NCBI RefSeq assembly: GCF_014873535.1
Contig: NZ_JADBEF010000001.1
Coordinates: 372,001 to 436,000, forward strand
Reading direction: 5' to 3'
Source: Nonomuraea africana
Lineage (GTDB): Bacteria > Actinomycetota > Actinomycetes > Streptosporangiales > Streptosporangiaceae
Length of the DNA: 64,000 bases
In this document: positions 22,083-39,815 of the stretch, in pieces
How positions within the stretch are numbered: position 1 is the stretch's first letter
How the letters are laid out: each line of letters opens with the position of its first letter
Position numbers and translations under genes: made by a program
The notes under the pieces: model-generated
Told to the model about the DNA's origin: nothing
The model's database searches: none
What the model saw: only the letters and a program-made list of their open reading frames with translations

Positions 22083-23326
22083 TGTGCCTGCCGGGAATGT
22101 CATCCGCGCAGGTCATGCGGCTTGCTCGCTCTTCCTGGTTTGTGCCCCGCCTCGGCTCTCGAAGGCGGCCGATCGCGGCATGATGATCGCTTGTGCTTCT
22201 CCGTCTGGCTTACCTAACCGTCACGAACGCCTTCGCTGCGCTGCGGTTGTTGCCGGTGGGAGATAGGGACAAGGACGTCGAGATCCTGGCCCTGCGCCAC
22301 CAGATCACCGTTCTTGAACGCCAGCTCGGCGCGGACACCAAAGTGAAGTTCGCTCCTGAGGATCGCGCCTTCCTGGCCGCGCTCCTGATGCCGTTACCGC
22401 GCGAGGTCCTGCGTCGGCTGCGGCTCCTCGTCCGCCCGGACACCATCCTGCGCTGGCACCGCAATCTGCTCAGGCAGCGTCACGCCCGTACCTGTCAGAG
22501 GAAACGGCCGGGCCGTCCACCCACCGTGCGCTCCATCCGCGCGCTCATTCTGCGGCTGGTCCGAGAGAACCCCGCGTGGGGTTACCGGCGCGTGCACGGC
22601 GAGCTCGCCACCCTGGGCATCAAGGTCGCACCTTCCACCGTGTGGGAGATCCTTAAGCAGGAAGGCGTAGATCCATCCCCTGAGCAGGCATCGGTGACGT
22701 GGGCCGGTTTCTTGCGTTCGCAGGCCGACGCTCTGCTGGCCTGCGACTTCATCGAGACCGTCACTCTCACAGCGGGCAGCGCCAGTACGTCTTGGCGGTC
22801 ATCGAGCATGCCACCAGGCGTGTTCGCGTGCTGGGCGTCACCTCTCACCCGACCGTCACCTGGGTCATCCAGGCGATCCGGAATCTCGTGATGGATCTGG
22901 AGGATGTGGGCTGCCGGGCGCGCTTCCTGATCCGTGACCGGGACGGGAAGTTCCCGGCCCTCACATGGAGGAGATCCTCACCGATGCTGGCATCCAGACC
23001 GTGCTCACCGGTATCCGGATGCCGCGGATGAACTCCATCATGGAGCGATGGATCCAGACCTGCCGGCGCGAGCTGCTGGACCGAACCTTGATCTGGAACC
23101 AGCGCCACCTTCTGTATGCGCTGCGCGAGTTCGAGACCTTCTACAACGAACACCGGCCCCACCGGGCTCTCCAACATGCTGCCCCGCTTCGACCGCTCTC
23201 CGACTCCGACATCGACGCTGCCTCGATCACCCTGTTCGACGTCCGCCGACGTGATCGACTCGGAGGTGTCCTGAAGGAGTACCGGCACGTGGCTTGACCT
23301 GGCCGGATGATTAATCGGCACCCGCA
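22083..23326 (+). mobile_element. Insertion sequence copy 3
   Basis: The 1244-bp element has imperfect inverted ends: TGTGCCTGCCGGGAATG at 22083 and, on the other strand, TGCGGGTGCCGATTAAT from 23326. It interrupts a phosphotransferase remnant on the left and an IS5-type transposase on the right. A 307-bp piece of its right end recurs at 52421-52727. Confidence 0.8.
22193..23297 (+). pseudogene. Integrase-core transposase with two frameshifts
   Basis: It begins LLRLAYLTVTNAFAALRLLP and DVEILALRHQITVLERQL, with WGYRRVHGELATLGIKVAPS and LLACDFIETVTL. A shift near 22770 leads to VLAVIEHATRRVRVLGVTSH and RFLIRDRDGKFPAL. A second shift near 22955 leads to RMNSIMERWIQTCRRELLD and HRPHRALQHAAPLRPL, ending at the TGA at 23297. 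All three parts of the DDE core are present but in three frames. Confidence 0.75.
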
Positions 23327-23686: not shown

Positions 23687-23795
23687 CGCCGAAACGAATC
23701 CGCAGGTCAAGTGATGTGCCGCGGTTTTTGGCGCCGCACAGGCGGTGGGGGCCAGGTGCAGCAGCAGATCTGCATCATGTCGAGTACACAAATAC

Positions 23796-23825
23796 TTGAC
23801 GTTCTGTCCAGTGCTGCCATACCGT
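23796..23825 (+). promoter_or_regulatory. Promoter of the D-amino acid / GGT operon
   Basis: TTGACG at 23796-23801 is followed after 17-18 bases by ATACCG/TACCGT as a -10 candidate. The surrounding AATACTTGAC is shared exactly with the promoter of the convergent GGT gene at 38.97 kb. The first gene starts 57 bases further with GGAGG as Shine-Dalgarno. Confidence 0.4.
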
Positions 23826-23881
23826 CGGAATACCACGGTTTGGGAACCGTTCACCCCCTCGTGACTCTCGGAGGCCCCTCC

Positions 23882-24823
23882 ATGTCTTCAGCCATCCCCG
23901 AAATCGACATCGTGCACGTCGGGCTTGGCCCGATCGGCAGACAGGTGCTGTCCTACCTCGCCGATCGCAGCAGGTTCAAGAGCGTCGGCGCTGTTGACCC
24001 CGCGTTCGCCGGCCAGGAGCTGACCGACGGGCTGCGCGTGGTTGTCAGCCTTGACGAGCTTCCCGAGTGGGGCACCATGGCGATCCACTGTGCGGGCTCG
24101 TCCCTGGAGAAGTCGGCGCCCACGCTGGTCGCCCTGATGCGGGCCGGCCATCACGTGGTCTCGACCTGTGAGGAACTGTCCAACCCCTGGCACACCCAGC
24201 CGGAGCTGGCCGCGCAGTTGGACAACGTGGCTCGCGAGCAGGGTGTCGTCCTGCTCGGCACCGGCGTGAACCCCGGCTACGCGATGGACTACCTGCCGGT
24301 TGTGCTCGCCGCGTCGCAGCGCTCGGTGCGCGCGGTCGACGTCCACCGTGTGCAGGACGCCGCCCTGCGGCGGCTCCCGCTGCAGCGCAAGGTCGGCGTG
24401 GGCCTGTCCGTCGAGGAGTTCGAGCAGCGTGTACGGCAGGGCGACATCCGCCATGTCGGCCTACCCGAGTCGGCGAGGATCGTCGATCGAGCCCTCGACC
24501 TGGGTTGCACCGACTTCGTCGAGACCATCGACCCGGTCGTCGGCGACGACGGCATGGTGCTGGGCATCGACCAGCTCGTCATCGGCAAGCGCGGTGACAG
24601 CACGCTGATCCGCCTCCATCTGCAGATGGCCGCAGGTCTGCCGGACCCGCGCGACATCGTCGTCCTGGAGGGCGAGCCGGGTCTCACCTCGGAGGTGCGC
24701 GGCCTGCACGGAGACACGGCCACGGCGGCCGTGGTGGTCAACTCCCTGGGCAGGGCCATGGCGGCGCCGCCCGGCCTGCGTACCGTGGACGAGATCCCGG
24801 CCTCGCCGCAGCACCGATGCTGA
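23882..24823 (+). CDS. DapB-like NAD(P)-dependent dehydrogenase
   Basis: This 313-aa protein has an N-terminal Rossmann motif IVHVGLGPIGRQVL (residues ~8-21) and VDPAFAG. MAIHCAGSSLEKSAPTLVAL and HHVVSTCEELSNPWH follow, then GTGVNPGYAMDYLP, as in dihydrodipicolinate reductase-like and 2,4-diaminopentanoate dehydrogenase proteins. Those enzymes act on amino/imino acids or diamino acids. The stop overlaps the start of the D-aminoacylase. It is the first gene of the operon, so it probably oxidises or reduces an amino-acid product of the pathway. The exact substrate is unknown. Confidence 0.75.
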   Translation: MSSAIPEIDIVHVGLGPIGRQVLSYLADRSRFKSVGAVDPAFAGQELTDGLRVVVSLDELPEWGTMAIHCAGSSLEKSAPTLVALMRAGHHVVSTCEELSNPWHTQPELAAQLDNVAREQGVVLLGTGVNPGYAMDYLPVVLAASQRSVRAVDVHRVQDAALRRLPLQRKVGVGLSVEEFEQRVRQGDIRHVGLPESARIVDRALDLGCTDFVETIDPVVGDDGMVLGIDQLVIGKRGDSTLIRLHLQMAAGLPDPRDIVVLEGEPGLTSEVRGLHGDTATAAVVVNSLGRAMAAPPGLRTVDEIPASPQHRC

Positions 24824-26307
24824 GCCTGCTCATCCGCGATGCGCTGGTCGTCGACGGATCCGGACAGCCTGGGCGCCGGGCGGACGTCGCGGTCTCTCAA
24901 GACAGAGTTGCGGCCGTGGCCGAACGGATCGATGAGCGGGCCGAGCGGGTGGTGGAGGCGGACGGCCGGGTGGTCTGCCCGGGCTTCATCGACCTGCACA
25001 GCCATGTGGATTTGACGCTGCCCGACTATCCGCGGGTAGACGGGATGATTCGACAGGGGGTCACCACCCTGGTGACTGGCAACTGCGGGCTGAGCCCTTA
25101 TCCGGGGTCGATGGATCTGGCCGGGTTCGCGGCCGTGCTCGGGGGCGTTCCGCTGGCCGTACACGTGGCTCCTTTGGTGGGGCACGGCGCTATCCGGGAG
25201 GCCGCGATGGCCGACCCCTCCGGCACCCCGTCGGAGGGGGAGATGACGCGTATGGTCGAGCTGGTCGAGACCGCGATGACGCAGGGCGCGCACGGCCTGT
25301 CGACGGGCCTAATCTACGATCCGGGCCGGTTCGCCGGCACGGCCGAGCTGGTCGCGCTGGCCAGGGTCGTCGCCGCGCACGGCGGTTTCTACGCCTCCCA
25401 CGTCAGGGACGAGGGCGACGGGCTGGTCGAGGCGATCGCCGAGGCGATCGCGATCGGACGCACGGCCGGGCTGCCCGTGCAGCTCAGCCACCACAAGGCC
25501 AAGCGCAGGCGGAATTGGGGCCGGGTCGCCGCCACGCTGGGCATGGTCGATCGGGCCCGCGCGGACGGGCTGGACGTCATGCTCGACTGCTACCCCTACA
25601 CCGCCAGCAGTACCGGCTTGTGGGCTTACGCGCCGAACTGGTGGCGCCCGGGCGACGAGGTAGCGCGCGAGCGCGTCCAGGCAGGGTTGGAGGAGCGCTT
25701 TCCCGGCTGCACGGGCCGCGACGGCGCGCGCACCGATCTGAGCGATCTCGTCCTCAGTGGACTGACCGGGGTCGGCCGGCTCCAGCGGTATGAGGGCATG
25801 TGGTTGGACGAGGCGGCCAGGGAGGAGAACGTATCCCCTGCCGACCTGGTGATCGATCTGCTCTCGACGGCCGAGCACGTTCAGGTCATCGATCATGCGA
25901 TGAGCGAGGCGGACGTGTGGCGGGTGCTTGCCCACCCGGAGTGCGCGGTCGGCAGTGACGCCCGGCTCATCCATCCGGACATGCCGGGCGTGCCGCACCC
26001 GCGGAACTTCGGAACGTTTCCTCGCGTCCTGGGGCGGCTCCCGCTCGAAGAGGCCGTTCGCAAGTGCACGGGGCTGCCCGCTAGGCGGATGGGCTGGTGC
26101 GACCGCGGCCTTCTGCGGCCCGGCGCGGTGGCCGACCTGCTGCTGTTCGATCCGGACGCGATCGGCGATCGGGCCACCTTCGAGGAGCCCAGGCGGTATG
26201 CGACCGGTATCGACCTGGTCGTGGTCGGCGGCGAGGTCGTCATCGACGGTTCCGACGACACCGGCGCTGCCGCCGGGCGGGTACTCCTGCGAACGGGGTG
26301 CGGCTGA
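24817..26307 (+). CDS. N-acyl-D-amino-acid deacylase (D-aminoacylase family)
   Basis: This 496-aa amidohydrolase has PGFIDLHSHVDLTLPDYP (HxH metal site), TGNCGLSPYPGS (bridging Cys in GNCG), VQLSHHKAKRRRNWGRV, MLDCYPYTASSTGLWAY and AVGSDARLIHPDMPG with the catalytic Asp. These are hallmark D-aminoacylase motifs. It releases D-amino acids from N-acyl derivatives; imidase or dipeptidase activity is also possible in this group. It is translationally coupled on both sides, upstream to the dehydrogenase and downstream to the permease. Confidence 0.88.
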   Translation: MLSLLIRDALVVDGSGQPGRRADVAVSQDRVAAVAERIDERAERVVEADGRVVCPGFIDLHSHVDLTLPDYPRVDGMIRQGVTTLVTGNCGLSPYPGSMDLAGFAAVLGGVPLAVHVAPLVGHGAIREAAMADPSGTPSEGEMTRMVELVETAMTQGAHGLSTGLIYDPGRFAGTAELVALARVVAAHGGFYASHVRDEGDGLVEAIAEAIAIGRTAGLPVQLSHHKAKRRRNWGRVAATLGMVDRARADGLDVMLDCYPYTASSTGLWAYAPNWWRPGDEVARERVQAGLEERFPGCTGRDGARTDLSDLVLSGLTGVGRLQRYEGMWLDEAAREENVSPADLVIDLLSTAEHVQVIDHAMSEADVWRVLAHPECAVGSDARLIHPDMPGVPHPRNFGTFPRVLGRLPLEEAVRKCTGLPARRMGWCDRGLLRPGAVADLLLFDPDAIGDRATFEEPRRYATGIDLVVVGGEVVIDGSDDTGAAAGRVLLRTGCG

Positions 26308-27251: not shown

Positions 27252-28116
27252 CCTGAACGTCGCCGAGGCCCCGGTCGCGGCCAGGGCGGAGGGCTGGTGG
27301 CGGAGGTTTCGCACCTCCAGGCGCGGGATGATCGGGCTCTTTCTGCTCGGCCTGATCCTGCTGATGTGCGTGCTGGGGCCCGCGATCTCAGCTCACGACC
27401 CCGCCCAGGTGGACCCGCTGGCCAGGCTCGCCTCGCCGAGAGCCGCGCACTGGTTCGGCACCGACCAGTTCGGCAGGGACGTGCTCACCCGGATGCTCGC
27501 GGGCGGCCGCGTTTCCCTGATGGTGGCGGCGGCCGTCACCGTGCTGAGTGTGGTGGCCGGCTGCTTTCTCGGTCTCCTGGCCGCTATGTACGCCCGAGCA
27601 GACGGGCCGATGATGCGCGTGCTGGACGCGCTGATGGCCTTCCCGTCAGTGCTGCTGGCCATCGCCCTGATGGCCAGGCTCGGGCCCAGCCTGGTCAACG
27701 TCATCGTGGCGCTCTCGCTGGTCACCGCGCCCACCTTCGCCCGGCTGGTGCGCGGGTCGGCGCTGGTGGTCAAGTCGGCGCCGTACGTGGAGCTGGCCAG
27801 GGCACTCGGCCTGCGCCTGCCTACGCTCATGGTCCGCTACTTGCTGGCCAACTCGCTGAGCCCGCTGATCCTGGCCGCCACGTTCGGCGCGGCGAACGTC
27901 ATCCTCGCCGAGGCGTCGCTGTCCTTCCTCGGGGCCGGGTTGCCAACCTCGGTGCCCACCTGGGGAAGCATGCTGAACGACGGCCAGACCTACCTGAGGA
28001 ACGCGTGGTGGCTGGCGGTGGCGCCCGGCCTTGCGCTCACCCTCCTGCTCCTGGCGCTGAACATGATGGGCGACGCCCTGCGTGACGCGCTGGACCCACG
28101 CTCGGAGCGGCTGTAA
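27241..28116 (+). CDS. Peptide/opine ABC importer permease (DppC-like)
   Basis: This 291-aa partner permease has the Dpp/OppC N-terminal RRGMIGLFLLGLILLMCVLG. It also has FGTDQFGRDVLTRMLAGGR, EAA loop YVELARALGLRLPTLMVRYL and AEASLSFLGAGLPTSVPTWG. It overlaps the upstream permease by eleven bases. Confidence 0.92.
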   Translation: MAVDLNVAEAPVAARAEGWWRRFRTSRRGMIGLFLLGLILLMCVLGPAISAHDPAQVDPLARLASPRAAHWFGTDQFGRDVLTRMLAGGRVSLMVAAAVTVLSVVAGCFLGLLAAMYARADGPMMRVLDALMAFPSVLLAIALMARLGPSLVNVIVALSLVTAPTFARLVRGSALVVKSAPYVELARALGLRLPTLMVRYLLANSLSPLILAATFGAANVILAEASLSFLGAGLPTSVPTWGSMLNDGQTYLRNAWWLAVAPGLALTLLLLALNMMGDALRDALDPRSERL

Positions 28117-28141
28117 ACCCCCACAACGAAAGAAGCCCACC

Positions 28142-29728
28142 ATGTTGCACCGACGGATCTCGCTAGGGTTGGTGGTCAGCGCCCTGCTGCTGGTCAGCGC
28201 CTGCGGCGGAGCTAGAGACAAGGCCACGGAGTCCGGCGACGCCGGAGCTCCACGTCAGGGCGGCACCCTGCATTACGCACTCGGCGCTGACCCGCCCACG
28301 CTGGATATCCAGCAGACCACCGCCGGGGTGGTGGCCACGGTCGCCTACAACGTCGTGGAGTTCCTGTACGTCAGGGATGAGGCGGGTGCCAATATTCCAA
28401 TGCTGGCGGAGAAGGCCGAGCCCGACGGCGACAGCCGTACCTGGACCGTGTCCCTGCGCAAGGGCGTGACCTTCCACAACGGCGAGACCATGAACTCGGC
28501 CGACGTGCTGGCCTCCTACGAGAGATGGGCGAAGATCAGCCTCATGGGAGCGCAGGTCGCCAAGCGCCTGCAATCGGTCAAGGCCACCGACGACAGCACG
28601 CTCGTCTTCACCTTCAAGGAACCCTTCGGCGCGTTCCTGTCGGCCATCTCGATCAACAGCCAGGGCCTGGCGATCTATCCCGCCTCCGTCGTCAAGAAGT
28701 CAACCGACACCAAGCTCGCCGAGCTCGTCGGGACCGGCCCATACAAGCTCGACAAGCACGACCCCGGCCGGATGATCAAGCTGGTCAGGTTCGACAGGTA
28801 CGCCGCCCTGCCGGGTGATGGTCCCCGAGGGTACGGCGGGCGCAAGCCGCAGTACCTGGACGCGATCGAGTTCACTCCGGTCTCCAACGAGGGCGCGCGG
28901 CTGGCCGGATTCGAGGCGGGCAAGTACGACCTGGTCCACGGCTCTTCGGCCGACGCGCTGCTGGCGCTGGAGGGGTCGCGGAAGGTCGTCGTGGAGAAGG
29001 TCGATCCGACCGGCTTCCAAGCCATGCTGATCAATCAGAAGTCGCCGGTCACGGCCAACGAGAAGCTGCGCAAGGGCATCCAGGCCGCCCTGGACCACAA
29101 CGCGATCCTCGCCGCGGGGCTCGGCCAGGGCAACTTCCGGCTCGACCCGAGCATCCAGCTCAAGGAGACGCAGTGGCACTCCGAGGCGAGCAAGGAGAGC
29201 TACAACGTCCACGACGTCGCCAAGGCCAAGCAGCTGATCGCGGACAGCGGCTACAAGGGCCAGCCGCTGCGCCTGGTCACCTCCCGCGATCTGGTGCGCT
29301 TCTACAACCAGGCGGTCGTGGTGGAGCAGCAGCTCAAGGATGTCGGGCTGAACGTGACGATCGAGACCTACGACTGGGCGACCGCGCTGGAGCACCGCGA
29401 CGACCCGAATGGGTGGGAGCTGTTCATCACCGACTTCGGCGTCAAGAACGATCCGATCGAGCAGCCGTTCATGAAGCTGTGCGCCTACGTCGGCTGGTGG
29501 TGCGACGCCGAGGCCCAGCGGATCGTCAACGAGTTGTACGAGGTCGGTGACCAGACGCGTCGGATCGAACTGACCGGGCGGTTCCAGGAGAAGGTCTACG
29601 AGCAGGTGCCTTTCATCAAGTTCGGTGACACCGGCGGTGTCGTGGCGCACAGCGCTCGAACGGGCGGCGTCACCCGGCAGGGCGGCAACAGCGTGCTCGC
29701 CTGGAACGTCTGGCTGAACCGGCCATGA
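28142..29728 (+). CDS. Family 5 solute-binding lipoprotein (DppA-like)
   Basis: This 528-aa protein has a lipoprotein signal (LLLVSAC, Cys21-22 region). The mature SBP_bac_5 protein has RQGGTLHYALGADPPTLDIQ, WTVSLRKGVTFHNGETMNSA and LRLVTSRDLVRFYNQAVVVE. It captures the imported ligand outside the membrane. The ligand is inferred from neighbours: peptides, gamma-glutamyl or N-acyl amino compounds. Its end overlaps the ATPase start by four bases. Confidence 0.92.
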   Translation: MLHRRISLGLVVSALLLVSACGGARDKATESGDAGAPRQGGTLHYALGADPPTLDIQQTTAGVVATVAYNVVEFLYVRDEAGANIPMLAEKAEPDGDSRTWTVSLRKGVTFHNGETMNSADVLASYERWAKISLMGAQVAKRLQSVKATDDSTLVFTFKEPFGAFLSAISINSQGLAIYPASVVKKSTDTKLAELVGTGPYKLDKHDPGRMIKLVRFDRYAALPGDGPRGYGGRKPQYLDAIEFTPVSNEGARLAGFEAGKYDLVHGSSADALLALEGSRKVVVEKVDPTGFQAMLINQKSPVTANEKLRKGIQAALDHNAILAAGLGQGNFRLDPSIQLKETQWHSEASKESYNVHDVAKAKQLIADSGYKGQPLRLVTSRDLVRFYNQAVVVEQQLKDVGLNVTIETYDWATALEHRDDPNGWELFITDFGVKNDPIEQPFMKLCAYVGWWCDAEAQRIVNELYEVGDQTRRIELTGRFQEKVYEQVPFIKFGDTGGVVAHSARTGGVTRQGGNSVLAWNVWLNRP

Positions 29729-31542
29729 ACGAGCCCGTGCTCCAGATGCGTGACCTGAAGGTCGCCACGACCGGCCGCTCACCCGTGACGATCGTCGACG
29801 GTGTGGACGTCGAGGTCGGCCTGGGGGAGACGGTCGCACTGGTCGGGGAATCCGGCTCGGGTAAGACCATGGCCGCCCGGTCCGTGTTGAAACTCCTGCC
29901 GGGCAACTTGAGCGTCTCGGCCGGGCAGCTGAACGTCGCGGGCACCAACGTGCTCACGGCCTCGCTGGAGGATCTGCGGCGGCTACGCGGAGACGCGGTC
30001 GGCATGGTCTTCCAGGATCCGATGGCAGCCTTCAACCCGGTCCTGCCCGTCGGCCTTCAGGTGACCGAATCCGTGCACATCAGACGGCGAGGTATGTCCA
30101 AGCGCGAGTGCTATGCGCTGGCAGCCGAGGTGCTCGACCGGGTCGGCATCTCCGACCCGGAGGCAAGGGCCCGCCAGTACCCCCACCAGTTCTCCGGCGG
30201 CATGCTGCAACGCGCGATGATCGCGATGGCTCTGATCAATCGGCCGCGGCTGGTGATCGCCGACGAGCCCACCACCGCGCTGGACGCCACCCTGCAAGTG
30301 AAGATCGTCGAGCTGTTGCGGATCCTGCAGGCGGAGATCGGCTCCGGGATCCTGGTCATCACGCACGATCTCGGCCTCGTCGCCGAGCTCGCCAACCGCG
30401 CCGTCGTCATGTACGGCGGGCGCGTCCAGGAGAGCGGCCCGGTGGCCGAGCTGTTCACCGATCCGAGCCACCCCTACACCCGGGCCCTGCTCGACAGCAG
30501 GCCGGAAGGCAGGACGGCCGCGCAGATCCGCCCGATCCCCGGCGAGCCCGCCACACCGGCCAGCCGCCCGCCCGGCTGCGTGTTCCACCCCAGGTGCCTG
30601 CAGCGCGCCGGGCGCAGCACCTGCGTGGACGAGGTGCCGCTGTTGCAGATCACCACACCGGACCGACAGGTGGCCTGCCATTTCGCGAGTGAGGAGCTGC
30701 TGACCTCTCCCGTGCCCGCCACCGTCGCGAGCGATGCGCCCCAAGTCGAGCGCCCGGCCGCCGTGGTCGTGAAGGACGTTGGCAAGCGCTTCATCACCAG
30801 GTCCCTGTGGTCGGGGAAGGGCAGGTCGGAAATCCAGGCCGTTGACCAGGTCACGTTCACGGTGGCACGGGGCGAGAGTTTCGGGCTCGTGGGGGAGTCG
30901 GGCAGCGGCAAGAGCACCCTCGGCCGGTTGATGGTCCGCCTTCACGAACCGGACACAGGCACGATCGAGGTTCTGGACGGCGATGGGCAGCCCGTACCTG
31001 ATGATCGGCTCCGCCGTACGGTCCAGTGGGTCCATCAGGACCCCTACGGCTCGCTGAACCCGCGCATGACCATCGGGCGACTGCTCGGCGAGGTGCTCGC
31101 CCGCTATCGCCTGCACGAGGCGCGCAGGCACGAACGGGTGACCGAACTACTCTCGCTGGTAGGCCTCCCCACCCAGCTCGCGGCCCGCTACCCACACCAG
31201 CTGTCGGGCGGACAACGGCAGCGGGTCGCCATCGCCCGCGCGCTGGCCGTCGAGCCGCAGATCCTGGTGCTCGACGAACCGCTGTCGGCACTGGACATGT
31301 CCATCCAGGCACAGGTCATCACCCTGCTCGGCCGCCTACGCACCGAGCTTGACCTGTCCTACGTGCTCATCTCGCATGACCTCCATGTGGTCAGGACGAT
31401 CTGCGACCGAGTCGCGGTGATGTCCAAGGGCCAGGTCGTGGAACTGGGCACGGTCGAGGAGATCTTCGAGCGACCACAACATCCGTACACCAAAACCCTG
31501 CTCGCGGCCATGTTGAGCACGGCGAAAACGAAGGCGGTCTAA
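29725..31542 (+). CDS. Fused DppD-DppF ATPase of peptide importer
   Basis: This 605-aa protein has two nucleotide-binding domains. NBD1 has GESGSGKTMAARSVL, FSGGMLQRAMIAMAL and VIADEPTTALDATLQ. A peptide-importer C-terminal stretch (RPPGCVFHPRCLQRAGRSTC) links the two. NBD2 has GESGSGKSTLGRLM, LSGGQRQRVAIARALA and ILVLDEPLSALDMSIQ. Both sites look catalytically complete. The fusion replaces the usual two genes, completing the importer in four genes. Confidence 0.93.
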   Translation: MNEPVLQMRDLKVATTGRSPVTIVDGVDVEVGLGETVALVGESGSGKTMAARSVLKLLPGNLSVSAGQLNVAGTNVLTASLEDLRRLRGDAVGMVFQDPMAAFNPVLPVGLQVTESVHIRRRGMSKRECYALAAEVLDRVGISDPEARARQYPHQFSGGMLQRAMIAMALINRPRLVIADEPTTALDATLQVKIVELLRILQAEIGSGILVITHDLGLVAELANRAVVMYGGRVQESGPVAELFTDPSHPYTRALLDSRPEGRTAAQIRPIPGEPATPASRPPGCVFHPRCLQRAGRSTCVDEVPLLQITTPDRQVACHFASEELLTSPVPATVASDAPQVERPAAVVVKDVGKRFITRSLWSGKGRSEIQAVDQVTFTVARGESFGLVGESGSGKSTLGRLMVRLHEPDTGTIEVLDGDGQPVPDDRLRRTVQWVHQDPYGSLNPRMTIGRLLGEVLARYRLHEARRHERVTELLSLVGLPTQLAARYPHQLSGGQRQRVAIARALAVEPQILVLDEPLSALDMSIQAQVITLLGRLRTELDLSYVLISHDLHVVRTICDRVAVMSKGQVVELGTVEEIFERPQHPYTKTLLAAMLSTAKTKAV

Positions 31543-31546
31543 GCAC

Positions 31547-33208
31547 GTGAGTTACAAGAACGTCGCCCGGGGCCGGGGAGCCGCAGCGGCGGCCGAGGAT
31601 CCGCGTGTCCTGGACGCCGTCAAGAGGATTCTGGAAGCGGGCGGCAACGCCGTGGACGCCGCCGTGGCTGCTGCGGCGATTCAGGGAGTCTGCCGCCCGA
31701 TGTCGGGCGGGCTCGGCGGCGGCGGCTTCATGCTGATCCGGCTGCCCAGCGGCAAGACCGTGGTCGTGGAGCACCGCGAGCAGGCGACGGCGGCCTTCGG
31801 GCCCGAGAGCCTGGTCGACGACCACGGCGCCGAGCTGCCCAATGCGGACAGGGCCGTGCACGGTCACTCCGTTGGCGTTCCGGGCGCGGTGCGTGCGTGG
31901 GATGAGGCGCTTCGCCTGTACGGCAGGCTCAGCTTCGCTGAGGTCCTCGCTCCCTCGATTGAGCTGGCACGCGAGGGTTTCGAGGTCGACGCCACCTTGG
32001 GTAGGGAGATCGCAGAGCGGCGCGACGATTTCGCCATGTTTGAGCCGACCAGGCGGATCTACTTGACCCCTGACCTCCAGGCGCTGCCGGTCGGTACCTG
32101 GCTGCGCAACCCCGATCTCGCCCGGGCCTACGAGCTGATCGCCGAGCAGGGCGCCAAGGTCTTCTACGAAGGTGAGATCGCCGAGGCCATCGTGCGAACC
32201 GTCAACGAGCCGCCCGCCGCGGAGGGGGTGACCCGGCCGGTGCGCGCGGGCCTGATGACGCTCGACGACCTGACCCACTATACGGTCAGGCACCTGGAGC
32301 CGGTCCGCTACCGCTTCGGCGACTACGAGATCGCCGGGCCCCCGCTGCCCTCCAGCGGGGCGCTGACAGTGGGCGAGGCGCTCGGCGTGCTCGACCGGCT
32401 CGAATCTGGCTCGCTGGTCCACCAGCTCCACCGATACCTGCAGGTCAGCCGCATGGTATTCGTCGACAGGGACGCCTACCTCGGCGACGACCGGCACGTG
32501 GACGTCCCCGCGGCCGCGCTGCTCAGCGAGGACTACCTGCGGGCCAGGGCGGCCGGCATCGACAGCGAGACCGCCGTGCCCGGCGACCTGTCCACCGGCG
32601 GCGCGCCCTGGATGTCGCAGGAGCCCGACAGCCCGTCGACCATTCACATGACGGTCGACGACGGAAGGGGCATGACCGTCAGCTACACCTCGACGATCGT
32701 CAGCATGGGCGGCTCCGGCGTCGTCGTGCCCGGCCTCGGCTTCCTGCTCAACGACGCTCTGGCCGGCCGAACTGCCTTCCGCGGTGGTCTGTACGGCTCT
32801 GCCCGCCCGATGTCCCGCATGCGACCACTGAGCAGCATGGCTCCCAGCACCGTGGAACGTGACGGTGAGCTGGTGATGGCGCTGGGCTCCCCAGGCGGCA
32901 CCACGATCATCACCACTACGCTGCAGATACTGTACCTAACTCTGGGCGCCGGAATGAGTCTGGAAGAGGCACTGGCATTCCCCCGCGTGACGCAACGAAA
33001 TGAGCCCGGCGGATTGGCGCTGGCCGAGCCGGCCTTTCTCCGGCGCGACTTCGCCGATGAATTGCGCGCTCTGGGACACGAGTTCGACGTTTGGCAACCG
33101 GTGGAGGGAATTGGCGCCGCGAACGGTATAGAATTCTCCGCGAATGTCACCGCGGTCGCCGAGCCCGTGCGTCGCGGCGGCGGCGCTGCAGCGGTTTGGG
33201 AGCTGTGA
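31547..33208 (+). CDS. Gamma-glutamyltransferase, no export signal
   Basis: This 553-aa protein has GGNAVDAAVAAAAIQGVCRP, GGLGGGGFMLIRL and VEHREQATAAF in the large subunit. The autocleavage and nucleophile site is SPSTIHMTVDD with Thr365. SMGGSGVVVPGLGFLLND and MALGSPGGTTIITTTLQIL lie in the small subunit. There is no signal peptide, so unlike typical Ggt it should act in the cytosol on imported gamma-glutamyl compounds, cleaving or transferring the glutamyl group. The GTG start is four bases after the ATPase stop. Confidence 0.88.
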   Translation: MSYKNVARGRGAAAAAEDPRVLDAVKRILEAGGNAVDAAVAAAAIQGVCRPMSGGLGGGGFMLIRLPSGKTVVVEHREQATAAFGPESLVDDHGAELPNADRAVHGHSVGVPGAVRAWDEALRLYGRLSFAEVLAPSIELAREGFEVDATLGREIAERRDDFAMFEPTRRIYLTPDLQALPVGTWLRNPDLARAYELIAEQGAKVFYEGEIAEAIVRTVNEPPAAEGVTRPVRAGLMTLDDLTHYTVRHLEPVRYRFGDYEIAGPPLPSSGALTVGEALGVLDRLESGSLVHQLHRYLQVSRMVFVDRDAYLGDDRHVDVPAAALLSEDYLRARAAGIDSETAVPGDLSTGGAPWMSQEPDSPSTIHMTVDDGRGMTVSYTSTIVSMGGSGVVVPGLGFLLNDALAGRTAFRGGLYGSARPMSRMRPLSSMAPSTVERDGELVMALGSPGGTTIITTTLQILYLTLGAGMSLEEALAFPRVTQRNEPGGLALAEPAFLRRDFADELRALGHEFDVWQPVEGIGAANGIEFSANVTAVAEPVRRGGGAAAVWEL

Positions 33209-34402: not shown

Positions 34403-35844
34403 CCCTAGAAGATCACTGAAGATGTTGGGGTCTGGCCTGCCGCGAATGAGAGCGGGGTCAGACTGGGTGTTATGCAAGGTGAGTGGGCTGGGGAGCCGGT
34501 CGGGCCGGATGTGTGGGCCACCTGCCGGGAGCTGATCCCCGCGGGCAGTGTGTTCGCGTTTTTGGCCGAACACCGTGAGGACCTGTTTCCCGGGGCGATG
34601 TTCGCCGACATGTATCCCTCACCCAACGGGCGCCCCAGCATGCCGCCACAGGTGCTGGCCGCGGCGGTGCTGTTGCAGACGCTGTATGGGGTCTCACTTC
34701 GACGCGGTTCAGCAGCTGCGCTGCGATCTGCGGTGGAAGGCCGCGTGCGGGCTGGGCCTGTATGACACCGCGTTCGATCCGTCGCTGCTGACCTATTTTC
34801 GGCGCCGGCTGGCCCGCTCGGCCGATCCAGACCGGATCTTCACCCGGATCAAGGAGGTCGTGGCCGCGACCGGGGTGCTGGGCGGGCCGGCAGCGGCGGG
34901 CGCTGGATTCGGCCGTGCTGGAGGACGCGGGCCACCCAGGAGACCGTCACCCAGCTGATCGCCGCGATCCGCCGGGTGATCCGCGAGGTGGGCGGTGCCG
35001 TACCGGTCGCCGCCGCTCACTGCACCGCCTGCGACTACCGCGACCCGGGCAAGCCGTGCATCGCCTGGAACGACGAGCAGGCCCGCGCGCACCTGGTGGA
35101 CGCGCTGATGGGTGATGCGATCGCTCTGCTGGCGAATCTGCCCGAGCAGCCGCTAGATGACAAGATCGCAGGCGCGGTCGGCCTGCTGGTCGACGAGCAA
35201 GCACCGGTGCAGCTGTTCGCCGATATCGCCTACGACAGCGGCGACGCGCGGTGCCGCCTGCACCAGACCGGACACCGCCTGGTGATCAAACCGCCCCGCT
35301 GCGGTCGGCTGTGCCCCGGCGGGTTCACCCTGGACGACTTCGCATCGACACCGCCGCCGCCATCGTGACCTGCCCCGCGGGCCATACCGTCCCGTTGTCG
35401 CCCGCCAGCGGGCGCCACCATCAGCGCAAGGCCCTCTTCGGCGATCGGTGCGCCTGCTGCCCGCTGCGCGAGCGGTGCACCACGGCCGAGGCCGACCGCA
35501 TCCTGACCATCCGCCCGCACCACGACCTGATGGCCGCCGCCCGCCGCCAGGCCGTCACCGACCCGGCCTGGCAGGCCGACTACCGCCGCTGGCGACCACC
35601 CGTCGAACGCGGCGTCGCCTGGATCGTTGCCCGCGGCAACCGCCGCCTGCGCTACCTCGGCACCATCAAGAACGACGCCTGGCTCCCCACCCGCGCTGCC
35701 GCCCTCAACCTCCGCATCCTGATCGGCCTCGGACTGACCCGCACCAACGACACCTGGGCGATCAGCCCTTCCAGCGCATAGCAGAGGAGCATCTCAACCC
35801 CGAGACGCCCCTCCACCAGCAACATCTTCAGTGATCTTCTAGGG
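34403..35844 (+). mobile_element. IS1182-type element inserted at CTAG
   Basis: Perfect 25-bp inverted repeats lie at 34403-34427 and 35820-35844, beginning CCCTAGAAGATCACTG. Both ends contain CTAG, consistent with a CTAG target or duplication. The right CTAG supplies the TAG stop of the convergent GGT gene. The internal transposase is decayed although the ends are intact. Confidence 0.85.
34472..35781 (+). pseudogene. IS1182-family transposase, several frameshifts and internal deletion
   Basis: The N-terminus WATCRELIPAGSVFAFLAEH and PSMPPQVLAAAVLLQTLYG is in one frame. LRCDLRWKAACGLGLYDTAF is in the next. IAWNDEQARAHLVDALMGDA and VQLFADIAYDSGDARCRLHQ are in a third. The C-terminus GHTVPLSPASGRHHQRKALF and WRPPVERGVAWIVARGNRRL ends at 35781. 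The catalytic centre around the second Asp is shortened, so it cannot move itself. Confidence 0.75.
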
Positions 35845-38800
35845 GTGCTGCACCATGGCGCTGCCACCTCCCCTGCGGACCGGTTCCGAGACAGCCTGGA
35901 TCTCCCCGGTTGGCAGGAAAGCGATCGCGTTGACCGCGCCGATGCCGTAGGTGAGCGCGCTGACGTCGAAGTGGTGGCCGTGCTTGGTCTTGAGTGCGGT
36001 GTACTCCGGCGTCGTGGTGAACTCCGGTTCCACCATCGTGTTGCCCAGTGGGCTGTGGTTGCGCTGGCTCAGCCGAGGCGCGGCCACAGCCTGGGGCAGT
36101 GTCATGCCGAAGTCCAGGGAGTTCACGATCACCTGCAGCACGGTCGAGACGATCGTGCCGCCGCCCGGTGAGCCGAGCGCCATGACCGGCTTACCGTCCT
36201 TGGTGATGATCGTGGGTGACTGGGTGCTCAGCGGGCGCATGCCGCCGCGCGGCCCGTTGGGGTGCCCGACTGGGGCGTCGTCCGGGGTGCGGCCGGAAAC
36301 CTCGTTGTTCAGCAGGAAGCCGCGGCCCGGGACGACCATCCCGTTGCCGCCGATGGCGCTGAGCGTGTGGGTGTAGGTGACGATGTTGCCGTCCTTGTCG
36401 GCGACGGTGAGGTGGATGGTCGACTTCTTCTCGTCTCCGGGGGAGGTCTTCCCGGTCACAGCGGCGTGGTCGAACAGGGTCAGGTCGTCGATGTGGAAGG
36501 CGCCGCCGGCTGCCGCGCCGGTCGACTCCGTGGCGGAGATCAGCAGCTTGCCCGGGCCTGGGATCTCGGCGTCAGCCTTCTGCAGCTGCCAATCCTGTGG
36601 CTCCTGCTCGCCATCGGTCCAGACGCGGGCCTTGAGTCCCTCGCCGGTGACCCTGAACCGGAGCCATTGCCAGCCTGCGGGCATGGTCCGCTTGACTCCG
36701 GCGAGCGCGAAGGCCGCGTTGCCCTGCCGCACGCGAAGAAGCCGGATGTTGTCGACGCTCGTGTCGGTCGTCGACTTGATCTCGATGCCGTAGCCGTGGC
36801 TGGGGGTGACCAGCGTGTTCCAGGCGTCGCCGCGCAGCCAGAACCTCAGCCTGCGGTCGCCGCCGGGGTCGGTGACGCGGAATTTCACGAGCAGTTCGCT
36901 GTCGGTGAGCTGAGGCGCGTGGGCCTCGGCTCGGGCGTAGGAGAACTGCGGCTTGTCCAGGTAGAGGCGCCCAGTCTCGGATTGCACGTCGATCGCCGCA
37001 CCCACACCCGGTTTGCTGGCGCCGTTGCCGAACTGGGTGGTGAATCCGCTCCAGCTGGCGCCGTCGGGCAGGCCGGTGAAGTCGGCGTTGAAGGCGACCG
37101 GGTGCAGGTCGGTGACCTTGAGGTCGTCGACGCTGAACGCGCCGCCGGCCGCGCCGCCGGTCAGCTTGATCGCCGAGATCAGCAGCTTGCCCTTGCCCGT
37201 CACCGAGGCGTCCTGGAGCTGCCCGGTCCAGCTCTGGCGCGGCTCGCTCTGCCCGTCGGCCCAGATCCGGAACTTGAGCGCGCCACCCTCGACGCTGAAG
37301 CGCAGCCACTGCCAGCCGGTGCTCCTTGTGAAGGGGAGGGAAGCAAGCTGGTGTACGGCGTTGCCGTCCCTGGTCCTGATCAGCCGGACGGTGTCGGCAG
37401 CGGCATTGACCTCGACCGCATAGCCGTTCACGGGGGAGCTGCTGTTGTTCCAGGTGTCGGCGCGCAGCCAGAAACGCAGCCTGCGGTCGCCCCCCAGGTC
37501 GTTGATCCGGAACCGGGTCAGCAGTTCGCTGTCGGCGACCGGTTGCATGCCCGACGCGGCTCGCGCGAAGGAGCTGGCGGCCGGACCAACCGTCATGACC
37601 CCGGCGTTGTCCCTGACCTCGACGGCGCCCTCAGTGGCGAAACCCGCCCACGTGCCGCCGGAGAAGTCCGCGGCGAACACGCCCTTGCCGGTTGCAGGCT
37701 GCGGGGTGACCTGCCGGTTTGGGTCGGCGTCGAACGGCCATGGGTCCTCCGGCGGGACGGCACCCTCGGGGCTGGTCTCGGTGATGCGCTGGCGCACCTG
37801 CTCCGCGTACCTCTCTGAGAGCAGGCCGGCGATGGGCAGCGGGTTGGGGTAAGTTGCCGGATCGCCGAGGTAGGCCTGCTGGTCGGCGAATGCGCGCCTG
37901 GAGGCCTCCAGGTAGTAGTGCAGCGCCTGCTCACGCGGCACTCCCGTGAGGTCGTAGCCCTCCAGAATGTTCAGCGCCTGCGCGACCGTGACGCCACTGG
38001 TCGACGGCGGCGCGACGTGCACCTGGTAGCCGCGGTAGTCCACGGTGGCCGCGCCATACTCCTTGACCGTGTACCCGCTGAGGTCGGCCGTCGTCGCGGA
38101 ACCGGGGAGGATCTTGAACGGCGGGTTCGCCACCGTCTTCGGATGGTTGATGGTGTCGACGATCGCATCCGCGACCGCGCCCTTGTAGAAGGCGTCGCTG
38201 CCGCTCTTGGCGATGAGGTCGTAGGTGGCGGCGAGATCGGGGTTGCGGATCAGCGTTCCCGCGGGCGGGACCGTGCAGTCGGGGTTCAGGTAGAGCCTGG
38301 TCGTCTCGGGAAAGACGCAGAACCTGGCGGCGTTCTCGGTGATCTCGCGGACCAGGTTGGCGTCGGAGTAGAAACCCTTCGTCGCGACCTGGATGGCGGG
38401 CTGCAGGATCGCATTGAGCGACATGCCGGAGCCGTAGGCATGCACGGCCTGCTCCCACGCCTTGACTACGCCCGGCATGCCGACGCCAACGCCGCTGTTG
38501 GTCACCGTGTCCTCGTCGTAAAGGACTCCTGTGGCCGGGTCGATGAAGCTCTGGTCGTCGAAAGAAGAGGCGGCCGTGCTGCGGTGGTCGAGGACGGTGA
38601 ACTTGCCGGTTTCCTTGTCGTAGACCTGCATGTAGCCGCCGCCCCCAATGCCGCCGGAAAACGGCCGCACCACGCTCTGCACGGCCGAGGCCGCGACTGC
38701 CGCGTCGACGGCGTTGCCGCCCGCGTTGAGCACGTCGATGGCCGCCTGCGTGGCAAGGGGGTGCTCCGTGGCCGCGGCGCCGCCGTGACCTGTGGCGGTG

Positions 38801-38898
38801 GGCTGGCGGGAATAGGGGTCGGGCGCCTGCGCCGTCGCGGGAGACGGCGCGGCTAAGAGGAGAGCGGTTGCGATGGCCAGACAGCGAAACTTGCGCAT
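35839..38898 (-). CDS. Secreted gamma-glutamyltransferase with two inserted beta-sandwich repeats
   Basis: This 1019-aa protein has signal peptide LAIATALLLAAPSPATAQA. Residues ~50-400 are a GGT large subunit (GGNAVDAAVAASAVQSVVRP, GGIGGGGYMQVYDKETGKF). Then come two similar ~200-residue modules (about 407-600 and 601-815), each with DSELLxxFRxxDxGGDRRLR, GWQWLRF, GKLLISA and AGGAFxxDDL. These look like concanavalin/LamG-type sandwiches. The nucleophile site KSTIHLTVADKDG (Thr827) and small-subunit motifs NGMVVPGRGFLLNNEVSGR and GSPGGGTIVSTVL follow. Usual GGTs are ~580 aa. Stop TAG lies in an IS end. Confidence 0.85.
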   Translation of the reverse strand: MRKFRCLAIATALLLAAPSPATAQAPDPYSRQPTATGHGGAAATEHPLATQAAIDVLNAGGNAVDAAVAASAVQSVVRPFSGGIGGGGYMQVYDKETGKFTVLDHRSTAASSFDDQSFIDPATGVLYDEDTVTNSGVGVGMPGVVKAWEQAVHAYGSGMSLNAILQPAIQVATKGFYSDANLVREITENAARFCVFPETTRLYLNPDCTVPPAGTLIRNPDLAATYDLIAKSGSDAFYKGAVADAIVDTINHPKTVANPPFKILPGSATTADLSGYTVKEYGAATVDYRGYQVHVAPPSTSGVTVAQALNILEGYDLTGVPREQALHYYLEASRRAFADQQAYLGDPATYPNPLPIAGLLSERYAEQVRQRITETSPEGAVPPEDPWPFDADPNRQVTPQPATGKGVFAADFSGGTWAGFATEGAVEVRDNAGVMTVGPAASSFARAASGMQPVADSELLTRFRINDLGGDRRLRFWLRADTWNNSSSPVNGYAVEVNAAADTVRLIRTRDGNAVHQLASLPFTRSTGWQWLRFSVEGGALKFRIWADGQSEPRQSWTGQLQDASVTGKGKLLISAIKLTGGAAGGAFSVDDLKVTDLHPVAFNADFTGLPDGASWSGFTTQFGNGASKPGVGAAIDVQSETGRLYLDKPQFSYARAEAHAPQLTDSELLVKFRVTDPGGDRRLRFWLRGDAWNTLVTPSHGYGIEIKSTTDTSVDNIRLLRVRQGNAAFALAGVKRTMPAGWQWLRFRVTGEGLKARVWTDGEQEPQDWQLQKADAEIPGPGKLLISATESTGAAAGGAFHIDDLTLFDHAAVTGKTSPGDEKKSTIHLTVADKDGNIVTYTHTLSAIGGNGMVVPGRGFLLNNEVSGRTPDDAPVGHPNGPRGGMRPLSTQSPTIITKDGKPVMALGSPGGGTIVSTVLQVIVNSLDFGMTLPQAVAAPRLSQRNHSPLGNTMVEPEFTTTPEYTALKTKHGHHFDVSALTYGIGAVNAIAFLPTGEIQAVSEPVRRGGGSAMVQHP

Positions 38899-39007: not shown

Positions 39008-39706
39008 TCACGTGATCACGTCGAGAGGCAACCCCGGTTCTGAACTGAAGTGGCAGGCAGCGTGGTGCAGGCGCTGCCCCGCCCACACTTGCCGGGTCGA
39101 GCTCGCGACAGATCTCGCGATCGGGCAGGACTGACGGGCCGATCGGGCAGGAGGGTGGAATCTGCAGCCTGAAGGTGGGTGATGCGGGTCCGCTGGTTCG
39201 ACATCGGCCACTTGGCTCGGGTTCGGGTCAGAACCGGCCCTGCTCGGTACGTGTGACCCGGGATATGGCGCTGAAGCGAGGAGTTCGCGGGTATAGGGGT
39301 GCTGCGGATCGGCGAGCACCGCCTCGGCGGGTCCGAACTCCACGATTCGGCCCGAATGCATCACTGCGATCATGTCGCTCACGTAGCGCACCACCACGAG
39401 GTTGTGCGAGATGAACAACATGCTCGGCCACAGACAGACCACCTTGACGCCGCGCGCTCGGAGGTCTTTGACCACGGTGAGGACGTGAGCCGCAGAACGG
39501 CCGAACCTGTCGGACTTCCAGAACAAGAAGGTGTCTCCCTCTTCGACTGCAGCGAGAGCCTTCTTGAACTCGGGGCGGTCATCCCGGCCGCCGGAGATCT
39601 TCTCGTGGAAGATGACGTCGTAGCCGTGGGCGTTGAGCGCGTCCAGTTGGAGTTGAGGATTTTGATCGCGCGATGAGACGCGGGCGTAGGCGATGGCGCG
39701 TGGCAT
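39008..39706 (-). CDS. Chimeric ORF: serine resolvase N-terminus joined to peptide ABC ATPase tail
   Basis: In this 232-aa open frame, residues 1-90 (AIAYARVSSRDQNPQLQLDA, DDRPEFKKALAAVEEGDTF, WKSDRFGRSAAHV) are a resolvase catalytic domain with the nucleophile Ser in RVSS. It loses its end and HTH near 39430. The rest (LFISHNLVVVRYVSDMIAVM, ADPQHPYTRELLASAPYPG) is the C-terminal part of an OppF/DppF ATPase after Walker B. It lacks the ATP site. The product is unlikely to function in either role. Confidence 0.6.
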   Translation of the reverse strand: MPRAIAYARVSSRDQNPQLQLDALNAHGYDVIFHEKISGGRDDRPEFKKALAAVEEGDTFLFWKSDRFGRSAAHVLTVVKDLRARGVKVVCLWPSMLFISHNLVVVRYVSDMIAVMHSGRIVEFGPAEAVLADPQHPYTRELLASAPYPGSHVPSRAGSDPNPSQVADVEPADPHHPPSGCRFHPPARSARQSCPIARSVASSTRQVWAGQRLHHAACHFSSEPGLPLDVIT

Positions 39707-39719
39707 GGCAGGCGCTCCC

Positions 39720-39815
39720 GAAGGCTCTGGACGTCCAGAACACATTCTTGGACGGACGGTCGACCAGGAGCGACACCGTCCAGAAACCTCCGTCCAAGAA
39801 CCGCCAGGCCGCCCT
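39720..39815. other. Possible res site of the resolvase
   Basis: The 100 bases upstream of the resolvase start hold repeated GTCCAGAA and TTCTTGGACGG/CCGTCCAAGAA half-sites in both orientations (around 39728-39760 and 39778-39802). This is the arrangement expected of a resolution site next to tnpR. Confidence 0.4.

Follow-up and report, generated by a model that had tools for sequence, protein, structure and literature searches.

A gamma-glutamyltransferase-superfamily protein with predicted lectin-fold modules directly before its nucleophile threonine in Nonomuraea africana and other bacteria

We describe a protein of the gamma-glutamyltransferase (GGT) superfamily that carries two lectin-fold modules directly before its nucleophile threonine. 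It is encoded in a stretch of 64,000 nucleotides from Nonomuraea africana (contig NZ_JADBEF010000001.1, positions 372,001 to 436,000; hereafter the window). The lectin-module GGT, as we call it, is real, well-formed and recurrent, and it has no name in the libraries searched: it represents a GGT to which a mobile accessory module of lectin fold has been added. The maturation of GGTs is a classic example of self-cleavage; here folded domains of about 200-820 residues are tolerated exactly before the nucleophile and the amino clamp is lost, which makes both maturation and substrate range testable. Specialists in GGTs would find the architecture moderately surprising. In the open-access literature that we searched we found no description of the pre-Thr lectin-module architecture, and terms for it do not occur in PMC4568574 and PMC13114784.

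The gene is a 1019-codon open frame on the minus strand (35839..38898) that starts at the ATG at 38898, so that length, frame and strand are those originally predicted; its third-position GC of 0.90 is the codon bias of a real gene. The gamma-glutamyltransferase family PF01019, which we take to be MEROPS T3, matches both subunits as two stretches (E = 1.1e-123; 414.3 bits against a cutoff of 27), and the predicted structure has a pLDDT of 89.9 and a pTM of 0.86. Approximately the first 25 residues (38824..38898, minus strand; pLDDT <50) look by eye like a typical Sec signal sequence, and it is in this sense that we call the protein secreted. The remaining parts, all on the minus strand, are the large-subunit core (about residues 26-404; 37687..38823; large chains in the PDB align to about 32-402), module 1 (residues 405-598; 37105..37686; placed by the module alignment and by strands in the model), module 2 (residues 601-811; 36466..37098), a flexible linker before the cleavage site (residues 812-826; 36421..36465; pLDDT <50 at 816-824), and the small-subunit core (residues 827-1019; 35842..36420; placed by Pfam and PDB alignments). 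Thr827 (36418..36420) is the nucleophile and the expected N-terminus of the small subunit: its counterpart in PDB small chains is residue 1, residue 827 being where most PDB GGT small chains among the matches listed begin. Both modules accordingly belong to the large subunit and immediately precede an intact nucleophile, as had been proposed. Disruption of the Ntn fold, raised as a possible objection, is not seen in the structure prediction; structure comparison of the model finds the predicted fold undisturbed by the modules.

Fragments of mobile elements occur around this gene. A DDE transposase fragment (PF13751; 35251-35781, plus strand) adjoins it, and a frame with an HTH_32 domain (22193-22891, plus strand) resembles, on visual inspection, a piece of a transposase. 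In the frame at 39008-39745 (minus strand), a resolvase N-terminal domain continues into the C-terminal region of an oligopeptide-transporter ATPase; this upstream frame reads as a broken or fused mobile-element gene.

The two modules are similar to each other, as first noted (46% identity over 209 columns; pair E = 2e-61, far beyond chance), and the limits given for them then, residues 407-600 and 601-815, are good to a few residues, the strands in the model covering 405-597 and 601-810. Module 2, modelled alone (residues 600-814; pLDDT 95.6), is by structure comparison of the model a jelly-roll sandwich of the ConA-like or L-type lectin fold. The beta-sandwich nature claimed for the modules is thereby borne out, in the LamG/ConA-like fold class, for a predicted structure in which one of the two was modelled alone. 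The solved folds closest to the module are L-type lectins, a mycobacteriophage receptor-binding domain, and CBM66. Membership of LamG or DUF1080 did not hold up, since no such Pfam family matched the whole protein. Indeed, a whole-protein scan, reporting matches with E up to 10 that pass HMMER's filters, assigned the modules to no Pfam family, and the lectin-module GGT gave no NCBIfam match in the modules at E up to 1; in the further proteins scanned the module was likewise matched by no Pfam model, and the module profile found no chain at E up to 10 among PDB sequences. A lectin fold shared at the level of a model is no proof of sugar binding.

Distant, weak matches to the module in other long proteins share Trp149, Glu155, and Trp159 (model numbering; 42 of 42 alignments) and Pro156 (41 of 42). 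Judged from these residues, the weak matches appear to reflect a general superfamily signature only; a few of them were assessed by eye, and in three of the four surveys they come from about eight to nine first-look candidates per genome. R79, D85, and N95 are present in 1 of 10, 1 of 11, and 3 of 16 distant alignments, respectively (few of the 42 cover these positions). These three residues look specific to GGT-type modules and offer a weak lead to a candidate binding site.

The architecture is widely scattered. A search with residues 400-820 returned 31 proteins at E up to 10, own entry included, from 7994 candidates scored, the weakest match being P0032 (E = 1.7), which is not a GGT. When the core alone (residues 26-400) was used and the best 120 of 3273 matches were taken, the first 34, own entry included, all had modules; these were followed by P0046, which has none, three more proteins with modules, and 82 plain GGTs. 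Among the matches listed, modules stand directly before the Thr in 44 database proteins, the N. africana protein included, with one copy in 14, two in 24, three in five, and four in one. The linker from the last module to the Thr is 8-75 residues long (42 sequences measured, two of them loci). The architecture is thus no one-off, though none of the curated families scanned describes it. The lectin-module GGT falls short of the NCBIfam equivalog TIGR00066, at 351.8 bits against a cutoff of 357.85, and the module-free paralogue in the window (see below) misses that cutoff as well. Where they are named, such enzymes mostly bear the plain label "gamma-glutamyltransferase," which may mislead.

The named phyla of the 44 proteins are Actinomycetota and Bacillota, and the hosts named, which we take to be mostly Gram-positive, are Sinosporangium, Phytoactinopolyspora, Aeromicrobium, Paenibacillus, Sutcliffiella, Evansella, Oceanobacillus, Ammoniphilus, and Pseudalkalibacillus. 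At least nine loci were recovered when the module alignment was run against GTDB genomes (an undercount, as a single pattern was used), one of them in Steroidobacter agaridevorans, of the Pseudomonadota. Some relatives have further C-terminal additions: FIMAH, PF00963 (cohesin), or PF04122, presumably a cell-wall-binding repeat. Strong module matches (E < 1e-30) occur in two of 341 genomes of the family of N. africana, in one of 396 genomes of its phylum (its own), in eight of 348 genomes of the order of Evansella, with a GGT core in all eight frames, and in five of 104 genomes of the family of P. flagellatus, four of which were already known. The own-family, phylum, and Evansella-order surveys scored about eight to nine candidates per genome, so weaker or further matches may be missing from these figures. 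None of the 20 genomes listed for the same genus has a module match. The scattered distribution of the hosts suggests that the architecture has spread by horizontal transfer.

Two candidate descriptions of the modules were rejected. The architecture is not unique to the N. africana genome, the same fusion being present in other genomes and in databases. Nor are the modules general surface domains of their hosts: the N. africana genome has no second module-bearing protein at E ≤ 1, and in nine other genomes all 21 module matches at E ≤ 0.01 lie inside each genome's GGT-length frame.

In a tree of 84 core sequences (like the module tree below, a quick tree with SH-aLRT support alone), the 42 pre-Thr sequences (40 database proteins and two loci) fall in one group (SH-aLRT 99), together with the module-free P0046 and the module-free paralogue encoded in the window at 31547-33208, which sits on a long branch and whose placement is unsure. 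The three loop-permuted proteins included (described below) fall outside the pre-Thr group. Plain sequences were thinned to 38, P0046 among them. The tree leaves out P0038, P0040, P0042, P0051, P0055, P0071, P0074, P0094, P0103, and P0110, as well as two paralogues from the N. africana genome, and L003, a paralogue from the N. africana genome that had been read in a wrong frame, was dropped from both the tree and the counts. Three proteins (P0059, P0077, and P0095) were split at the wrong site for the tree, in which the first two are included; residue counts are unaffected. In the N. africana genome, two further weak GGT-like places lie near 1.03 and 1.69 Mb.

Residues of the active site were counted over 45 pre-Thr sequences (the 44 database proteins plus the locus from Steroidobacter). 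All 45 keep the nucleophile Thr and the equivalents of T409 and S462. The Asp at the position of Escherichia coli D433 is found in none of the 45, versus 82 of 82 plain GGTs from the best 120 of 3273 core matches; it is present in 20 of 20 loop-permuted proteins and in P0153, whose module is C-terminal. Because the module-free P0046 and the window paralogue (Gly at this position) also lack the Asp, we regard its loss as a trait of the clade that is accompanied, not caused, by the insert. The insert as the cause of amino-clamp loss is unsupported on both sides, two module-free members of the clade having lost the Asp and the proteins with loop or C-terminal modules having kept it. In the lectin-module GGT, E. 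coli N411, Q430, and D433 correspond to S847, E866, and G869, and the residues at N411 and Q430 vary among the 45 sequences. Of the 45, 34 retain the carboxylate clamp R114 and 11 have lost it; S463 is kept in 25 and replaced in 20; the oxyanion glycines are replaced by Ser in eight (G483, kept in 37) and in 23 (G484, kept in 22). Substrate or activity may therefore vary among the pre-Thr proteins. The lectin-module GGT itself keeps the nucleophile, T409, R114, S462, and both oxyanion glycines. At the R114 position, 10 of the 45 sequences have Val, probably those of the FIMAH-bearing P0033-P0042 group, and this substitution is perhaps a further change of substrate.

The Asp at D433 binds the alpha-amino group of the substrate, and the accessible text of one review of GGTs reports that substituting it eliminates transpeptidation, that 40-82% of the hydrolysis remains in two examples, and that acylase activity is gained (PMC8062742). 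Its absence from all 45 pre-Thr sequences suggests that their substrate is something other than an ordinary terminal gamma-glutamyl group as handled by E. coli GGT. The loss is compatible with the idea of a polymer substrate and is no proof of one.

The module also occurs at other sites. In P0029-P0031, a single module lies in a large-subunit loop after the MFID motif, with its last part placed first (model positions from 164/166 to 203, then 1 or 3 to 166-168). A search with the loop-module region (866 candidates, 44 hits) brought to 19 the loop-permuted proteins in which both pieces are present (P0029-P0031, P0132-P0144, P0146, P0148, and P0149; those named are from Oceanobacillus) plus one partial record. 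In P0153 the module stands after the small subunit. Three proteins of Virgibacillus carry it as well: P0151, a D-aminoacylase-type amidohydrolase with a signal-like start, has an internal module permuted at almost the same point, and P0145 and P0147 each have two modules and FIMAH, with no enzyme domain recognised by Pfam. By eye, the latter two seem to keep a remnant of a D-aminoacylase-like enzyme.

In the module tree, the amidohydrolase modules lie beside the pre-Thr modules of FIMAH-bearing GGTs (SH-aLRT 98), the loop modules join the second modules of P0039, P0044, and P0045 (97), and the C-terminal module of P0153 pairs with P0028 (85). These groupings fit several moves of the module out of the pre-Thr setting. 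Within pre-Thr proteins, the first modules of P0001, P0003-P0010, P0016, P0018, and P0019 form one group (87), and the second modules of the same proteins likewise cluster, along with a few others; in P0011, P0012, P0014, P0017, and P0020 the first module lies instead near second ones, and the two modules of P0013 pair with each other. Module duplication thus appears to be old, with a history that is not simple.

The window also contains an apparent plus-strand operon. It comprises a 2,4-diaminopentanoate-dehydrogenase-like gene (23711..24823; PF19328, E = 5.5e-19; 149.1 bits to the NCBIfam Ord model, short of its cutoff of 400), a D-aminoacylase-like amidohydrolase (24817..26307; PF07969; no signal sequence by eye), two genes taken by eye for oligopeptide permeases, an oligopeptide-type solute-binding protein (28082..29728; SBP_bac_5 by Pfam), a double ABC ATPase of the oligopeptide-transporter type (29725..31542; matched in two stretches by each of ABC_tran and oligo_HPY), and the module-free GGT paralogue (31547..33208; PF01019, E = 1.2e-119; no signal sequence by eye). 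Two HTH-cupin regulators follow, and then the lectin-module GGT on the opposite strand; the paralogue lies 2.6 kb from it. The best PDB match of the D-aminoacylase-like protein is an N-acyl-D-glutamate deacylase (3gip; E = 2.6e-85).

Parts of this neighbourhood recur. In all five Paenibacillus loci (L011, L013, L014, L015, and L016), a LysR regulator, a dehydrogenase-like protein, a C26 gamma-glutamyl-hydrolase-like protein, and a solute-binding protein are encoded within 6 kb of the GGT; identities between window and Paenibacillus are 25-28% for the solute-binding protein and 37-43% for the permease. In Sinosporangium, where one flanking gene was recovered via codon bias and similarity, the dehydrogenase adjoins the lectin-module GGT and is 69% identical to the window copy. 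Counting near lectin-module GGTs alone, the best dehydrogenase match lies within 12 kb of the GGT in seven of 10 genomes (G000, G210, G341, G343, G344, G345, and G346); it is unlinked in G348, represented by a distant match alone in G342, and absent in G347. None of the ten other loci examined showed the D-aminoacylase-like gene of the window. A second GGT near the lectin-module GGT is also seen in Steroidobacter and Ammoniphilus. Module and recurrent neighbours together point to a catabolic route for which we found no description.

From the computed architecture, predicted fold, recurrence, residue losses, and gene linkage we infer secretion, self-cleavage, binding by the modules, a substrate, and an order of pathway steps. 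Our preferred reading, to which we give a little less than an even chance, is that of a secreted self-cleaving amide hydrolase with lectin-fold targeting modules that performs the first scavenging step for gamma-glutamyl or acyl-amino-acid oligomers. The secreted Ntn hydrolase would cut itself before Thr827, leaving two ConA-like modules, flexibly tethered, as an extension of the large-subunit C-terminus next to the entrance of the active site. Through them the enzyme would stay attached either to a surface rich in glycan or polymer or to the polymer that it acts on. As the alpha-amino clamp of the classical GGT is missing, the reaction would probably be hydrolysis rather than transpeptidation, and accepted substrates would be gamma-glutamyl or other acyl amides that lack a free alpha-amino group, such as those within a gamma-glutamyl oligomer. 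The oligopeptide transporter would import the products, and cytoplasmic enzymes encoded nearby (the GGT paralogue, the D-aminoacylase-like enzyme, and the dehydrogenase) would finish their breakdown. The recurrence of the module in relatives from very different bacteria suggests a reusable, unnamed targeting part, and its presence in a D-aminoacylase-type enzyme and the module-free gene of that type in the window operon are two separate hints, neither of them proof, at oligomers containing D-amino acids as the target.

Several other explanations bear on the same evidence. The modules may instead fix the enzyme to the cell wall or exopolysaccharide of the bacterium that makes it, serving for localisation and having no part in the choice of substrate, which would be a small gamma-glutamyl or acyl amide. 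The mostly Gram-positive hosts, the C-terminal FIMAH, cohesin, or PF04122 additions of some relatives, and a copy number ranging from one to four, of a kind common in binding modules, all favour such anchoring, but the locus in the Gram-negative Steroidobacter does not, and we consider it unlikely while still a serious contender. Somewhat less probable again is a core that acts as an N-acyl (glutaryl-like or D-amino-acid) acylase in the manner of class IV cephalosporin acylases, with modules that help it reach natural polymers. The loss of the alpha-amino clamp, the variable N411 and Q430 positions, the acylase activity that D433 changes confer according to the accessible text of PMC8062742, and the narrowly missed TIGR00066 cutoff speak for an acylase. 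However, the Asn said to mark class IV acylases is found in only six of the 45 sequences, and the carboxylate clamp R114 is present in the lectin-module GGT as in most of its relatives; the missed cutoff may stem from the insert splitting the match, yet the module-free paralogue misses it too.

That the modules control maturation, with ligand binding gating self-cleavage of the secreted precursor, we hold to be improbable. The modules do end close to the nucleophile, and in the accessible text of PMC8062742 the C-terminus of the large subunit flips out after cleavage in E. coli GGT, though not in all microbial GGTs; but the linkers are variable and partly disordered, which disfavours tight coupling, and related modules in a loop, at a C-terminus, and in an amidohydrolase cannot gate cleavage. 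Finally, the transposase and resolvase fragments flanking the gene might be taken to indicate an assembly-error fusion or a dying gene. Against this we set the codon bias, the recurrence of the fusion in other genomes and databases, and the intact catalytic residues, and we give it hardly any credence. A broader version of the scavenging reading, which we regard as doubtful, would see an unnamed lectin-fold cassette that has moved repeatedly among secreted amide hydrolases (before the Thr, in the permuted GGT loop, at a GGT C-terminus, and in the D-aminoacylase-like enzyme), and that guides each of these enzymes to a common target outside the cell, probably a polymer of gamma-glutamyl units or D-amino acids or the glycan matrix of such a polymer, in an undescribed pathway horizontally spread across three phyla.

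Among known systems, the GGT precursor of Bacillus licheniformis (4y23) shares the core fold (Foldseek E = 1.2e-30; TM 0.90 on the target) and the nucleophile Thr; the lectin-module GGT differs from it and from the GGT family in having about 400 extra residues before the Thr and no alpha-amino clamp Asp. Bacillus GGTs are described in the accessible text of PMC8062742 as having no lid loop and an extra stretch of 14 residues at the C-terminus of the large subunit. The module has the same L-type lectin or ConA-like fold as the recognition domain of ERGIC-53 (LMAN1), at 15% identity. CBM66 of Bacillus subtilis (15% identity) and the receptor-binding domain of gp23 from phage TM4 (11%) are alike in fold, and the ligand of neither is transferable to the module. 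The Virgibacillus protein P0151, of the D-aminoacylase or N-acyl-D-glutamate deacylase type, has the same module, permuted, inside an enzyme; it differs from the lectin-module GGT in catalytic family (PF07969), and it is 34% and 37% identical in two stretches to the module-free amidohydrolase of the window. Class IV cephalosporin acylases, as treated in the accessible text of PMC8062742, resemble the lectin-module GGT in having a GGT-like core without the conserved Asp, and they carry Asn at the D433 position where the lectin-module GGT has Gly.
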